A DNA stretch of 28,946 nt from a virus: positions 1 to 28,946 of IMG/VR virus record IMGVR_UViG_3300027659_000158; one strand, 5' to 3'. Positions 6,118 to 20,477 of this stretch are shown here, piece by piece (the stretch's first letter is position 1; each line of letters begins with the position of its first letter). Below the pieces are notes generated by a model. That model saw only the letters and a program-made list of their open reading frames with translations. It was not told the DNA's origin and made no database searches. Position numbers and translations under genes: made by a program.

Positions 6118-6155
6118 AATGCTTCCTCCTAAAGAAAAAAAAGTAACCAAACACA

Positions 6156-7157
6156 TTATATCGACCACTCGATAGTTCGTGCAGGGTATCCATCAAAATT
6201 AGAGAAAGAAAAAACTTCCTCTGCACAGATTCTATCCATATCCTTGGCTTTAATCCAGTACGAACCCTTAGGCTCATCAAAATTTCCCGGTGGTGTTCCG
6301 TGAGCATTACCCCATGAATTTTGGATCAAAAAGATTAATCCGAAATCTGGATGAGTAGTAAAGCCCAAGCATGATTGCTGATGCCCCCACGAATCGTTTC
6401 TTGTCGCTAACTGGATAGAAGGGGTTCCAGATGGCTTTATCTTGAGATCGCTAAAACCCCACCATCCAGAAGCAATGGTGACAGGGTATCCATGCGATAA
6501 AGCCTGTTTGACCTCGTCACTATTTTTAAGCTTTGATGTACTTTGAACTTTGAACTTATTAGCAGACTCAGAAAGATCAATTGGTGGCTTATCTCCGTTT
6601 GACCATTGAGTTTCGGCTTTAGCACCAAAAGTCCAAGATCCATCTTGTTCTTTAATGGGTTGCGGGTAACTAGGATCTAGTGGTGGACAACCATCTTCAT
6701 TAAGCGATTCTGCCATGCTTGAGCCAAAAGACCCTTCTCCTGTTCCATGCAATCCACCTCGAACCCTAGATTGACCATAATTGTAGAGAATGAATGGGAT
6801 TCTCCATTCCTCGAATGTTTGTCTTTGGGTAATGATTTCAACCGCTTGGAGCGTTGCCATCACGGCTAAAGCACCATGACCTACACATGATCCTGTTTTT
6901 TGATCCCAAGGAAAAAATTCATATCCGGCAGCTTGATTAACCACCTTATACAAAAGGGATTCTTTCAAATCTAATGAAGGCCCAGCGATTTGAAAAGGAA
7001 CAAGTTTTGCATTGAACTTGTCTTGAAGTTCTTTGGGTTGCAAAACAATTGGAAACCAGCCAAATTTATTTGGTGATATTGGTTCTACTTGTATTGGAAC
7101 CTCTTTTTTATCTAGATTTTCTTTTTTCCCAAATCTTGGTCTTTTTTCCATAGCCAT
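6156..7157 (-). CDS. Papain-like (family C1) cysteine peptidase
   Basis: 333 residues. ATG at 7157 overlaps the upstream TAA (TAATG) and has AAAGGAG upstream. The papain tetrad is visible: Gln86 in DQKTGSC, nucleophile Cys91 in CVGHG, His259 in SWGHQQS, and Asn280 in QNSWG, the classic C1 signature. Spacing between Cys and His (168) is usual for C1 peptidases. No signal peptide is evident; the first 30 residues are charged. There is no propeptide of usual length and no cell-wall-binding repeat. It sits among holin-like and secreted proteins, and no amidase, lysozyme or other peptidoglycan hydrolase is visible. It could therefore be the lysin or an envelope protein-degrading enzyme. Alternatively it could process virion proteins. 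The fold assignment is firm; the biological role is inferred. Confidence 0.85.
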   Translation of the reverse strand: MAMEKRPRFGKKENLDKKEVPIQVEPISPNKFGWFPIVLQPKELQDKFNAKLVPFQIAGPSLDLKESLLYKVVNQAAGYEFFPWDQKTGSCVGHGALAVMATLQAVEIITQRQTFEEWRIPFILYNYGQSRVRGGLHGTGEGSFGSSMAESLNEDGCPPLDPSYPQPIKEQDGSWTFGAKAETQWSNGDKPPIDLSESANKFKVQSTSKLKNSDEVKQALSHGYPVTIASGWWGFSDLKIKPSGTPSIQLATRNDSWGHQQSCLGFTTHPDFGLIFLIQNSWGNAHGTPPGNFDEPKGSYWIKAKDMDRICAEEVFSFSNFDGYPARTIEWSI

Positions 7158-7792
7158 TACTTCAACTCCTTTGATATTTGATTAAACTCGTTAGTAAGAA
7201 GATCCCTAAGTTTCTGATCCAACTTCAATGAGCCATCCTTGGGAAGTTTTTGATTCAGTCTTTTACCTATCACATCCCTGAGATTAGAAAGCTCGTTTTC
7301 CATGAATTGCTTATTGATTGTTGCCTTGGCAGCTTTAAAAATATCTGTAAGAAATTCGTAGTCGTTTTTCTGACATTCTTTTGCAAGCTCATCGTAGAAC
7401 ATAGACAACCATTTGACTTGATCTTTGTCTTCTTTTGCTGCTGCTGCTTTGATATCACCATCAGGATTTACTGGTGGAGTAGGTGGAGCGGGAGCGGGTT
7501 CATCACCGATCACAACAGATGTAAACGCTGGATCAGATGGGCCAGATTCGTTTCCAACATAAGCAAACAATCTGTACACACCTTGGATTTGCGAAGTGAC
7601 TACCAAGGTTTTAGAATCTTTAAGCAAATCAACAGGGAAAATATTTAGTCCTTTGTCGATTGAAACCCATTTTACAAACTTGGATTCTGTCTTTGCTGGA
7701 ACGCTTATAAACGCTCCCGGTTGCCCAGAAACCTTTGCAGGGAGTTCTATAGTTGGAATTTGAAGAAACACTAAAAACAAGATGTTTATCAT
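7157..7792 (-). CDS. Secreted Ig-like domain protein of planctomycete type
   Basis: 211 residues. ATG at 7792 overlaps the stop of the HNH frame, with AAGGAATC as ribosome site. Residues 1-13 (MINILFLVFLQIP) form a short hydrophobic leader. Residues 17-95 form an Ig/PKD-like beta domain (SGQPGAFISVPAKTES, KWVSIDKGLNIFPVDLL, GVYRLFAYVGNESGPS). A Pro-rich linker follows (DEPAPAPPTPPVNPDGD), then a charged helical region to the end. This layout, with 'VsikaeTdg..VkW...d.GLnvfP.dLL...YRLlAyt...g..S', is one I know from Gemmata and relatives and is a host clue. In the lysis cassette it may bind the envelope. The function is not established. Confidence 0.7.
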   Translation of the reverse strand: MINILFLVFLQIPTIELPAKVSGQPGAFISVPAKTESKFVKWVSIDKGLNIFPVDLLKDSKTLVVTSQIQGVYRLFAYVGNESGPSDPAFTSVVIGDEPAPAPPTPPVNPDGDIKAAAAKEDKDQVKWLSMFYDELAKECQKNDYEFLTDIFKAAKATINKQFMENELSNLRDVIGKRLNQKLPKDGSLKLDQKLRDLLTNEFNQISKELK

Positions 7793-8079
7793 GGTCGATT
7801 CCTTATTTTTTCAGCAATCACTTTACAGTCTAATAAACAGGTGGGGTTATAAGACCGCCAGTTTTTTAAATGCCCCAGAAGCAAATGGCAAACTCTACAC
7901 AATGTTGCCATGTTTTTTCTGTCATATTCCCCTTCTGGATATAGTGAATACGGTATCAGATGATGCACTTGTAGTTTTTGGGGATCTTCTTCAAGGCAAG
8001 CTATACAGCAGGGGTTATCTGCAATATATTCATTCCTCTCTTTGCCCCAATTCGATCCCCGATTATAAAAAAACGGAGA
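7789..8079 (-). pseudogene. HNH endonuclease domain without its own start codon (frameshift-dependent or broken)
   Basis: This frame is open for 96 residues after a TGA at 8082-8080 but contains no ATG, GTG or TTG before the conserved core. Numbered from 8079: C25-x2-C28 and C61-x2-C64 are zinc knuckles, His39-His40 (LQVHHLIPY) is the HNH histidine, Asn56 lies in DRKNMATLC, and His65/His70 lie in CHLLLGHL, followed by the family tail KNWRSYNP and IRNRP. This matches a well-known phage HNH family, complete from the zinc knuckle to the C-terminus. It lies in the +1 frame relative to the 8063-8383 gene and overlaps its end at a T7 run, so a +1 slip would yield a 197-residue fusion. Otherwise it starts at an ATT (plausible ribosome site AGAGAGG), or the run was mis-sequenced. 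Confidence 0.8.
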
Positions 8080-8383
8080 TCAATAACTTTAGTGCAGTCT
8101 TCAAAACGATTGCCCAAGGAATTATTCCAATCGTAACTGGGTTGCCGTGGAAATCACCTTGAGGAATCGCTTGCTCAAGAATTGCTGCAAAATCTTCAAG
8201 AGACACTTCTGGTTCTTCAAAAATTAGTTTATCGTCAGGAACAACTTGATCGGCAGCATAGCCAACAATGTTCCAAAGTGCATTACAAAATTCTTTGTTG
8301 CCTACATCTGGACTCTTTCCACGGAGTCTGTTCACAACGAGCATCATGGCATCTGTAGGCATACTTTTTGGAAAATCAATCAT
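8063..8383 (-). CDS. Hypothetical protein with hydrophobic C-terminus, between holin-like gene and HNH
   Basis: 106 residues. ATG at 8383 overlaps the TGA of the upstream gene (ATGA), and an AAGGAAG ribosome site lies within that gene. The N-terminal part (MIDFPKSMPTDAMMLVVNRL) is helical. An acidic middle follows (DDKLIFEEPEVSLEDFAAIL). The C-terminus (IIPWAIVLKTALKLLISVFL) is hydrophobic, ends naturally and may lie in or on the membrane. I recall similar short 'P.d....v..klrg' proteins with a 'PW..llk..l.ll' ending in other phages of this kind, but with no assigned function. It may be a lysis accessory protein. A +1 slip at its final codons would replace Leu106 with the HNH domain. Confidence 0.65.
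   Translation of the reverse strand: MIDFPKSMPTDAMMLVVNRLRGKSPDVGNKEFCNALWNIVGYAADQVVPDDKLIFEEPEVSLEDFAAILEQAIPQGDFHGNPVTIGIIPWAIVLKTALKLLISVFL
8067..8073 (-). promoter_or_regulatory. T7 run, candidate +1 frameshift or slippage site
   Basis: On the minus strand the upstream gene ends GTT TTT TTA TAA. The seven T let tRNA-Phe move forward one base and continue as TAT AAT CGG in the HNH frame, just before the TAA stop. A T6 transcript from polymerase slippage would give the same fusion. A one-base sequencing error would also explain it. Confidence 0.4.
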
Positions 8384-8717: not shown

Positions 8718-9365
8718 TTAAACAGAAATATAAATTGATGTTACGATCAAATAAGTCATACCGGGATACCCTCCACCAATGCTGAAAAGTATAGCCAAAG
8801 AGTCACCAGAAGAAATTCCTATCGTTCCAGTAAAACTCATTCCATTGGCATACAAAACACCTTCTATGTAAGTTCCATTGATCGTAACATAACCCATTGC
8901 ACCAGAACTCATCATGTCATAAAGACTAAAATTATAATAAAGAGTTCCGCTAACCGAAGCTTGGTAATTTATTGTCAGCGAATCATTAACATAACCTGTT
9001 AATGGAGACATCATTGAGCCATCACCAGTAACTGTATGACTACTGCTGGTCTCTGAAATTTTGACTAAATTTGGTGTAGGAGTAGGAGTAGGTGTAGGAG
9101 TAGGAGTAGGGCTAGGTGTTGGTGTTGGAGTCGGAGTAGGAGTAGGTGTAGGTGTAGGTGTAGGAGTAGGGCTAGGAGTAGGAGTAGGAGTCGGTGTAGG
9201 AGTCGGTGTGGGTGTGGGGGTTGGTGTGGGAGTGGGTGTAGGAGTGGGGGTAGGAGTAGGAGTAGGGCTAGGTGTTGGTGTTGGAGTCGGAGTAGGACTT
9301 GGACTAGGGGTAGGTGCAACATTTTTAATATTTACCACTCTGGAAGTAAAATTAGTTACTGTCAT
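8718..9365 (-). CDS. Tail spike/fibre with Pro-Thr repeat stalk and beta tip domain
   Basis: 215 residues, starting with ATG at 9365, not the upstream 9428 ATG that lies inside the neighbouring gene. GGAG is 10 nt upstream. Residues 1-17 ([17 protein letters not shown]) are a short anchor. Residues 18-98 are an almost pure Pro-Thr/Pro-Ser repeat, probably an extended rigid stalk. Residues 99-215 are a beta-rich tip ([29 protein letters not shown], ending SIYISV). The tip aligns by eye with the C-terminal domain of the 1393-2301 protein, so the two share a tip module. It lies directly before the lysis cassette as the last fibre gene. A host-surface or decoration adhesin is likely. Confidence 0.75.
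9068..9318 (-). repeat. Six-base Pro-Thr coding repeat with internal 156-bp-offset duplication
   Basis: About 40 imperfect 6-bp units (CCNACN type on the minus strand) encode the Pro-Thr stalk. A 47-bp block at 9095-9141 recurs exactly at 9251-9297. The offset of 156 bp is 26 units, which keeps frame and phase, so it looks like expansion by unequal recombination or slippage. Both third positions vary between units, which suggests the tract is old enough to have drifted or is kept imperfect to limit slippage. Confidence 0.85.
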
Positions 9366-9366
9366 G

Positions 9367-9696
9367 TTATGAAATCTCCGCACCAAATAAAGAAAAGCCA
9401 ACCGAACCAGCAGTAGATTGAACAACAATTACATCTGTTGCAGATAATGTAATTCCTATTGTGAGAAAAATTGAATCTGAAGCTGCAATAGGGGAATCAT
9501 AAGCAATATACATTTCGTCAGAAATTGATACACCTAACTTTTTAACAGCTATTCTAAAGGTTCTTGCTGATGCGGTTTGATTGCATATTGCTAATGTCGA
9601 AACAATAGTGCTTGTTGCTGCTGGAACTGTATACAAGTTGGTTAGCGTTGCTGCTGAAGGTATAACCTGACCTAGAACCTTATGGACTTGTGGCAT
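9367..9696 (-). CDS. Small virion protein of a widespread phage tail-associated family
   Basis: 109 residues. ATG at 9696 overlaps the preceding TAA (TAATG), with GGGGGT upstream. The sequence ([71 protein letters not shown]) closely follows a family I know from many marine and freshwater phages: 'kvlgQ..p.attlttlYtvPa.tstvvSt..vcNr', ending 'vsfnafG.Eis'. It is generally annotated as hypothetical or as a structural protein beside tail fibres. A single jelly-roll-like beta domain is expected. Its precise position in the virion is unknown. It is co-translated with the fibre gene before it. Confidence 0.75.
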
Positions 9697-19500: not shown

Positions 19501-19702
19501 CAGGCTTGGTTACTATTTGGACTTTGATTGATTTGATTGCGTTTACAAGGGTTGTTTGGAGCCGTTTAATTGCCGTGGTTAAGCCATTAAAGCTTTTGGT
19601 GAAATCCCTAGATCCAGCTTTAACACTTTGGGCAATATCTTCAATTGCACCCACAAAATCAGTTGCTGTGTCTTCTTCTGATTTTAATGGAATATCTGCC
19701 AT
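16538..19702 (-). CDS. Tail tape measure protein
   Basis: 1054 residues, ATG at 19702 overlapping the TAA of the T-domain frame (TAATG). This is the longest gene and follows the G/GT chaperones, the classic siphovirus position. Residues 1-480 are extremely Lys/Glu/Ala-rich and coiled-coil-like (EEEEENKRKLQ, KEQADIASANSAAKALSDA). Around 490-560 is a conserved tail motif with GGDVSYLADGGDASG and AMLTPGEFVVNKGAA. An Ala/Ser/Asn linker follows (about 570-690). Residues about 720-940 contain several hydrophobic segments (LIIVGITNVIKPIIEFLTAF, LGIIQTLLGAFVNIIGLIIQ), expected for membrane passage of DNA. The tail length should be in the region of 150 nm if the usual ~0.15 nm per residue holds. No lysin domain is seen. 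Confidence 0.9.
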   Translation of the reverse strand: MADIPLKSEEDTATDFVGAIEDIAQSVKAGSRDFTKSFNGLTTAIKRLQTTLVNAIKSIKVQIVTKPEKAVKQTTKAKEASTKEVTKEKEKVIEKNPEVKVRAKKSEVKKEPVASPVEIKVESQPKAPLKEEKKEESDKEKNTEKKKLADAEALILKALAGDFKTFWKKLREFSAKVKDNDVVSKALKNLIDQGKIKKDPNKSAVYSLAEKTEQAKPKARVSRAKPKAPKIEVAEIEQPKVEEPQKKVLKVEQPKVAKAPKILTQEEEEENKRKLQVKKERDETNKKLRDLRLLEAERKRKEAEEKPQKEEQKKKEKEEKIVRSLGTPGTKKFVGPRLEEEDLANQKAKKDKEQADIASANSAAKALSDAADAAAQAIEDAAKRKEKAEQEEDKALKTLRTYFRNKSKKEAQESAKAAVKEAQESSKAEEDFIKQQQQAARQLEQANQRTQKELDSMIAGFQNFSPLFRGPLVNYGLKMIAKGIGYKQPKQMSKGGDVSYLADGGDASGPMKPKGTDTQPAMLTPGEFVVNKGAAQDPENRKELESINSGKKSKKPEYHNPGGIVAGAAVAATGVAAAETAAVVGGAVAETATVAAAETAAAAAEATSAAASTAAAAAEATSSAIPAFEAVANKVPDASSAVASNAPNATNVSNVTNTTNASSAAPPNNPNPPSSSSAASPQGGGGGGNIGNILKKIDFESFGKKIKDFTGKFPGVGIASTALGIALNSVVQSVKIANQALAVFGPMVSKANPALMQKLEIVMNDLSGVIGRALVPAVEYLTPLLKKYADYVDFSMKKLTPSINKSAVAFDNIASPLLDFGAVLYSVIGPVLDKFALIIVGITNVIKPIIEFLTAFTSALVQTIGVLAEPIIYVAMATLSGAFGVLTVVIKTTLGIIQTLLGAFVNIIGLIIQGLGKVISYIPLMGDVGESIAKGGEAISKSGESLKQGKPAEQDRIKKGSSTGAAVREVSSTSISGVGDEVRKNALMAASGAKTQEDMLGDIAGKLDKGNLADAFAEGIKKANGNKPQAAPPVALEGRIPVALNKQEKLELSV

Positions 19703-20070
19703 TATTTAATTCCCGGTGGTAAGCTTCCAAATTGCTTAATCCAAGACGATTTCATCTTGGCTTGACTCATCCCTAATGATGCTCCCATTTTCATAAATTT
19801 ATCGTATTTTTGCAACAGCATATCTTCTGGGGAGGCCTTTTTTTTCCTAGTATTCCATTCATGCTTTTCGTCAGGAATAGAAATAGGAACACCCTTATCA
19901 TCCCTCTTTCGATAATACAACTCAACTATTTGCCTATCGGTCAACTGCTCAATCTCCCAAGGTCGAAGGAGATAAGGTTTATCCATCAAATTTACATAGT
20001 AGTTTTTTAAATTAGGTGGAGGTATTGGTTCTTTTGGATTAAAAGACCCATCACCTACACCTTCTTGCCG
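19702..20070 (-). CDS. T-domain of the tail assembly chaperone GT, made by -1 frameshift
   Basis: Read in the -1 frame from the slippery site at 20076-20070, the sequence is open to 19702 and adds about 122 residues to residue 136 of G. It passes through RQEGVGDGSFNPKEPIPPPN into DKPYLLRPWEIEQLTDRQI and ends SWIKQFGSLPPGIK. The full GT would be about 258 residues. The part beginning at 19986 has an ATG but no ribosome site upstream, which fits production only as a fusion. Known T-domains recruit the tube subunit to the tape measure. Basic and mostly helical, it precedes the tape measure as expected. Join: 20477-20070 with 20070-19702. Confidence 0.85.
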   Translation of the reverse strand, partial: RQEGVGDGSFNPKEPIPPPNLKNYYVNLMDKPYLLRPWEIEQLTDRQIVELYYRKRDDKGVPISIPDEKHEWNTRKKKASPEDMLLQKYDKFMKMGASLGMSQAKMKSSWIKQFGSLPPGIK

Positions 20071-20477
20071 TTTGGGAAGGATTTATCCCTAACGATTTCC
20101 ATGACCGCTTCAAACCTGTCATTCTCAGCAAGCATGACATCTTGAACTTCGTTCTCAGGTGCTGAAAACAATATAGATGCAAATGACAATGCTCCAGATG
20201 GAGTTGACAATGCTGCTATGGAATTCTCGCTACCAAAAGAATAAATTCCGCTCGCAATGTCTCTGGTTACAGAAGAAATCGCTTCACGGAATTCAACAGG
20301 TTCTAGTCTATCCTTCATTGAGAAAACAGAATCGAGAGCCTTCTTCTCCATTCGCTTTTCAAATTCAGCTTTGACTCTCTGAGTAATTAATCCAGCGGTA
20401 TATTTTTTACCATTGTATTCAATGGTCAAAGATCCTTCACCGCTGGAATTCAACAAATTACCAACTGTATCTGACAT
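20055..20477 (-). CDS. Tail assembly chaperone G
   Basis: 140 residues. ATG at 20477 with GAAAGGAAG upstream. It lies between the tube genes and the tape measure, as gpG does in lambda. Composition is acidic and helical (SLTIEYNGKKYTAGLITQRV, EFEKRMEKKALDSVF, AENDRFEAVMEIVRDKSF). The C-terminus NGKKV is reached in the zero frame, and a CCCAAAC site five codons before the stop lets a fraction of ribosomes enter the T frame. The short form is thought to be the major product. Position plus frameshift make this call secure although the sequence itself is poorly conserved. Confidence 0.85.
   Translation of the reverse strand: MSDTVGNLLNSSGEGSLTIEYNGKKYTAGLITQRVKAEFEKRMEKKALDSVFSMKDRLEPVEFREAISSVTRDIASGIYSFGSENSIAALSTPSGALSFASILFSAPENEVQDVMLAENDRFEAVMEIVRDKSFPNGKKV
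20070..20076 (-). promoter_or_regulatory. CCCAAAC -1 programmed ribosomal frameshift site
   Basis: On the minus strand the codons TTC CCA AAC GGC place C CCA AAC in the X XXY YYZ phase. A -1 slip continues in the frame that stays open through the tape-measure-proximal T-domain to 19702. The zero frame ends at TAG 15 nt later. No strong downstream hairpin is obvious by eye. Confidence 0.85.

Follow-up and report, generated by a model that had tools for sequence, protein, structure and literature searches.

A candidate programmed ribosomal frameshift that may fuse a four-helix phage protein to an HNH nuclease without a start codon

How can an HNH nuclease be produced from a reading frame that has no start codon of its own? 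The question is raised by a gene pair on the minus strand of the window, which is the complete analyzed stretch of 28,946 nucleotides of the virus record IMGVR_UViG_3300027659_000158 (Table 1). The HNH frame is located between a TGA at 8082-8080 and its terminating TGA at 7791-7789, and it opens just 14 bases ahead of the TAA of the upstream gene for a 106-residue protein. A sequence-only reading of this locus had stated that the frame opens after a TGA without ATG, GTG, or TTG, that it is +1 to the 106-residue protein, and that both meet at a run of seven T residues (T7) near the stop codon of the latter. All of this, including the positions, was found to be right. A +1 join of the two frames leads to 197 residues, the size given before, and a −2 join to 198 residues.

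Table 1. Positions of the features of the gene pair and its junction in the window
Feature	Position	Strand	Remarks
106-aa upstream gene (zero frame)	8063..8383	minus	stop TAA at 8065-8063
Start-less HNH frame	7789..8079	minus	+1 relative to the 106-aa gene
T7 slippery run	8067..8073	minus	mRNA GUU UUU UUA UAA; includes U UUU UUA
Spacer, slippery site to stem	8061..8065	minus	5 nt in the window; contains the zero-frame stop
Stem 5' arm, GGGGAUC	8054..8060	minus	covariation and fold
Stem 3' arm, GAUCCCC	7980..7986	minus	covariation and fold
Inner helices	7991..8050	minus	8042-8050 with 7991-7999; apical 8019-8028 with 8002-8011
HNH domain, PF01844	7879..8007	minus	Pfam profile match, E 2.7e-12 to 1e-10, residues 25-67
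Next gene, 211 aa	7157..7792	minus	ATG overlaps the HNH stop (ATGA)

The gene pair and its relatives

The HNH frame encodes a predicted HNH endonuclease of the PF01844 family with the motifs C25xxC28, H39H40, and C61xxC64 (numbered as HNH-frame residues), and the PHROGs comparison also identified it as a phage HNH protein. The earlier statement that the domain is complete, with two CxxC pairs and HH, thus holds. A dN/dS of about 0.09 to 0.25 indicates purifying selection on this frame, which is incompatible with the degenerate copy that had been considered as a refutation. Within the first 18 codons past the run, where the overlap with the upstream gene has ended, pN was about 0.2 to 0.35 compared to a pS of about 0.6 to 1.0 between clades.

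The 106-residue protein and the HNH half were modelled separately with AlphaFold2. The former gave four helices at residues 10-20, 29-46, 62-77, and 90-105 with a mean pLDDT of 79; the C-terminal helix is predicted to be hydrophobic, with a highest 19-residue hydropathy of 1.9. Pfam and PHROGs yielded no named family for this protein and Foldseek no significant structural match for its model. Neighboring genes encode a short protein that has a single hydrophobic segment and, on the downstream side, a protein carrying papain-like motifs. The latter motifs, GSCVG and NSWG, are present in a 333-residue protein (6156-7157, minus) without a Pfam or PHROG match, and a 94-residue neighbor also had no family match in Pfam or PHROGs. 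Assignment of the region to a lysis cassette, as in the sequence-only reading, is not established by these neighbors, which have no Pfam or PHROGs assignment, and this label is a guess. An intergenic run of eight T residues (6135-6142, minus) is situated just past the end of the 333-residue gene. About one third of a 236-residue protein (8718-9428, minus; 239 residues in the homologue of L003) is a (PT)n repeat, which may be a spacer of a tail or fibre protein.

A search with the 106-residue protein identified 38 viral contigs, an alignment search 57, and a search with an HNH alignment 80, with overlap between these sets. Alignments were used as queries because the single HNH sequence matched only one locus. 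No relative of the 106-residue protein or of the capsid was found in records of cultured phages, and the genome collection contained only two, both in contigs of metagenome-assembled genomes (MAGs) and probably of phage origin. Additional scans did not add further members.

The relatives were sorted into four arrangements. In arrangement (a), 28 contigs including the window and the MAG contig L098 possess the T7 run and an HNH frame in +1 without a conserved start codon; the junctions are GTTTTTTTATAAT, GTTTTTTTATAAC, ATTTTTTTGTAA, and CTTTTTTTATTGTAG. These contigs originate from many metagenomes plus the independently assembled MAG, and both run and phase are kept across clades with upstream proteins about 51 to 97% identical. 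The codon before F is that for V, I, or L (GTT, ATT, or CTT), always ending with TT. Arrangement (b), a sister group of five contigs (L024, L025, L059, L129, and L130), has a T6 run, in all cases GCT TTT TTA TAG, with HNH in the −1 frame and no shared start. In arrangement (c), HNH is absent from this position and the run is broken to GTT TTC TTA TAA in all five contigs, an interruption that may possibly represent one event; four of the five records had no HNH match in the available sequence and one contains an HNH elsewhere. Arrangement (d) comprises about 30 more distant contigs, 30 to 41% identical, in which HNH has an ordinary start codon (ATG or GTG), mostly within the final 11 to 15 bases of the upstream gene. 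At the position of this start codon, CCG, CTG, CGA, or CGC is present in the T7 clades. In the unrooted tree of the upstream protein, a well-supported split separated arrangements (a), (b), and (c) from (d). Since the distant relatives use a standard HNH start, frameshifting would be a trait of one clade and not of the whole gene pair.

The alignment of homologous phages proposed in the sequence-only reading thus revealed conservation of overlap and phase in the 28 T7 contigs, and reads with T6 or T8, named there as a counterargument, have no counterpart among them, as no length variants of the same geometry occur. A standard start in relatives had been named as another: none is conserved within the T7 clade, but the distant relatives have one.

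The HNH proteins of the window and of L002 are about 82% identical to that of L032 and about 55% to that of L003, while both flanks match L003. The HNH segment has thus apparently been exchanged between lineages as a cassette, one border of which is close to the slippery site.

RNA structure downstream of the run

Apart from the T7 at the junction, no run of exactly seven T residues occurs in the coding strand of the 8,532 annotated codons. With V-F-L as the encoded residues and the codon usage of the phage itself, however, the probability of such a run by chance is about 0.22, so that the run by itself is not improbable.

The stem-loop at the junction of the window had a minimum free energy of −29 kcal/mol and a z-score of −3.55. 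An outer stem, GGGGAUC/GAUCCC, encloses about 65 nt, with 99.3% of the cells paired in 20 distinct sequences. It begins 5 to 6 nt behind the heptamer in all sequences, 6 nt in most relatives. Its closing pair varies between A-U, G-C, and U-A and its fourth pair between A-U, G-U, and G-C; the covariation score exceeded those of all 500 shuffles and of every slid control. Compensatory double changes (C-G/A-U and A-U/G-C) are present in the main clade's inner helix, and support for the inner pairing is weaker in the clade of the window. In the consensus fold of all clades the outer stem predominates, since the inner helices vary from clade to clade.

Folds of single sequences gave z-scores of −1.8 to −3.8. 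When synonymous codons were shuffled with protein and codon usage kept, not more than 6 of 500 shuffles were as stable in 11 of 12 sequences of the recoding clade and L030 fell short with 64 of 500, counts that should not be read as probabilities because all sequences compared are related. Scans of complete loci yielded junction z-scores of −2.6 to −4.5 in loci with HNH and +1.0 in an HNH-less locus; the junction was the lowest or second-lowest scanned segment in five of the seven HNH-containing loci and the third in the other two.

Relatives with a standard HNH start had z-scores mostly near zero, and the stem was weak or absent in most. Exceptions were L035 (z about −3) and L080 (z about −2.5) with a stable fold at the HNH start, which may be a coupling element or a remnant. 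A distinct local hairpin, GGGGC-UGGAAGUG-GCCCC, is present in the T6 clade and is GAGGC/GCCUC in L130, a double change from G-C to A-U with both changes synonymous. Rfam contained no match for the junction RNA, and no Shine-Dalgarno-like stimulator was apparent upstream of the junction.

Routes to expression of the HNH frame

The junction is likely a programmed ribosomal frameshift signal that fuses the four-helix protein to the HNH nuclease, an interpretation supported by the conserved phase, the absent start codons, the selection on HNH, the conserved stem and its spacing, and the broken run in the relatives that lack HNH here. The locus combines a start-less overlapping frame, a run in fixed phase, a stem within 5 to 9 nt, and selection on the shifted frame, as in a frameshift cassette. 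Ribosomes translating the 106-residue gene would be stalled by the RNA stem that starts 5 to 6 nt downstream, with UUU occupying the P site and UUA or UUG the A site. Most of them would terminate at UAA and release the 106-residue protein alone, and a fraction would shift to the net +1 frame and thus into the HNH frame, yielding a minority protein of 197 to 198 residues. HNH would be expressed only as a C-terminal extension of the 106-residue protein, probably keeping the nuclease scarce and tied to the complex of this protein. Gene callers would miss the N terminus of such a nuclease, or its whole gene, because it would be made by frameshift fusion.

A slip of the ribosome itself, its direction, and its efficiency are inferred from the sequences. 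The earlier proposal of a +1 frameshift fusion is supported with respect to the net frame and the fusion, but the movement itself may be −2. In the T6 sister clade, a −1 slip on U UUU UUA would suffice, T6 being the exact run for it. The T7 clades keep the P- and A-site position and the spacing of the T6 clade, but their target frame is +1. A −1 signal of the X_XXY_YYZ type has its downstream gene in the −1 frame, which is the case in the T6 clade only and not in the T7 clade.

Given ribosomal frameshifting, a −2 slip is the more probable movement in the T7 clade, with the P-site tRNA-Phe re-pairing fully with UUU two bases back. This direction is favored because a structural stimulator is the kind of element that drives backward slips, because T7 is the shortest run that permits full P-site re-pairing two bases back, and because the codon before F varies between V, I, and L but always ends with TT. 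A shortened spacer at the HIV site raises −2 relative to −1 slips, and −2 frameshifting has precedents in phage Mu, arteriviruses, and Trichomonas vaginalis virus 1 (PMC5009743). Against −2, the easiest slip on U7A should be −1, which would lead only to the short, unconserved tail of about 12 to 24 residues present in the −1 frame of the T7 clades. The main alternative under the same premise is a true +1 slip, which is less probable here. Among known cases, +1 is the commoner route than −2 into this frame. Whether one gene pair uses three routes to HNH, an overlapping start, −1 on U6, and −2 on U7, with the run length matching the shift, is close to an even call and tentatively put forward.

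The best-surviving rival places the slip in transcription: RNA polymerase would slip on T7 or T6, so that some mRNAs carry U6/U7 and are conventionally translated into the fusion. A homopolymeric T run is indeed present, and one-base length changes would account for the T6 and the T7 geometry. Slippage of this kind is known for bacteria, typically at runs of about 9 T residues, and the enhancing hairpin in the nascent RNA of a Roseiflexus insertion sequence is located 5' of the run (PMC5009743). Runs of 6 or 7 are short for strong slippage, however, the conserved structure of the phages is 3' of the run, and a spacing of 5 to 6 nt suits the ribosome, which makes transcriptional slippage unlikely.

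Alternatively, HNH may be made separately by termination-reinitiation or from a non-AUG codon, with no fusion at all. The distant relatives do start HNH at an overlapping ATG or GTG, and the ATT at 8025, the only near-cognate codon ahead of the HNH core in the window, is preceded by GAGAGG about 9 nt 5' of it. This ATT is not conserved, however, nor is any other near-cognate start among the T7 relatives, many of which have no such codon at all, and nearly all distinct T7 junctions are devoid of ATG, GTG, and TTG before the HNH core; the only late GTG, in L032, is missing from its sister contigs. CTG alternates with CCG among the T7 junctions through a change synonymous in the upstream gene, and ATT and CTG were rejected as starts because they are not conserved. 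Moreover, AlphaFold2 predicts a helix at HNH-frame residues 11-21, just before CxxC, with a pLDDT above 90. It is mostly encoded 5' of the ATT, so that a start there would remove most of this conserved, confidently modelled helix. The conserved T run and the stem would also be left unexplained, and a separate HNH is therefore very unlikely.

Phase variation, in which changes of the DNA run length toggle the fusion on and off, would fit a homopolymer at a gene end but is highly improbable, as no in-frame variant exists among the 28 T7 contigs and the run length is fixed within clades. An indel error of sequencing or assembly, or a pseudogene, had been regarded as the main alternative, T7 being a classic indel site, and has virtually no chance of being true, since T7 and the identical phase recur in 28 contigs including an independently assembled MAG, HNH is under purifying selection, and no in-frame run-length variant occurs.

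Comparison with known frameshift systems

Frameshifting in tailed double-stranded DNA phages is well known and has been described mostly for tail chaperones. The sequence-only reading stated that no case of such a nuclease fusion is known to be described, and the literature searched here, with incomplete coverage, likewise contained no HNH produced by a frameshift onto another protein. Frameshifting itself is not new, but this gene pair, its probable −2 direction, and the switch between lineages are. A single T of the slippery run and, apparently, the direction of the shift distinguish the relatives, so that determinants of −1 versus −2 (or +1) shifts could be tested on natural sequences. If the three-route reading is true, it would add a second example of −2 frameshifting in phages and provide a natural series for the determinants of slip direction.

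The tail-assembly chaperone genes G/GT shift by −1 in lambda, by −2 in Mu, and by +1 in others (PMC5009743). In both systems a short gene ends in an overlap with the next frame and has a slippery site; a minority C-terminal fusion is made from G/GT and proposed for the HNH pair, and the direction of the shift, which varies among phages in G/GT, probably also differs between the relatives here. The HNH pair, however, is not a tail chaperone, its added domain is a nuclease, and it does not adjoin the tape-measure gene: it is about 8 kb away from the 1054-residue gene, which is directly preceded by a different pair. There, C CCA AAC (20070-20076) forms the end of a 140-residue gene (20055-20477, minus) that precedes this tape-measure-like gene, and the −1 frame of the 140-residue gene is open into a 95-residue open reading frame (19702-20076, minus), apparently a −1 frameshift of the classical G/GT tail-chaperone type.

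The −1 signal of the HIV type shares the heptamer U UUU UUA, the spacer of 5 to 6 nt, which is the canonical range for frameshift stimulators (PMC5009743), and a stem behind the spacer. The match is complete in the T6 clade, whereas the HNH of the T7 clade is in the +1 (−2) and not in the −1 frame. Among relatives of Trichomonas vaginalis virus, the downstream frame is reached by −2 in one and by −1 in others (PMC5009743). A −2/−1 switch between relatives would be common to both, but double-stranded DNA phages and other genes are concerned here, and the run length changes with the direction. Compared to the small phage HNH endonucleases of PHROG 144 and kin, domain family and motif are the same, but the HNH described here has no start codon of its own and, under the best explanation, would be expressed as a fusion.
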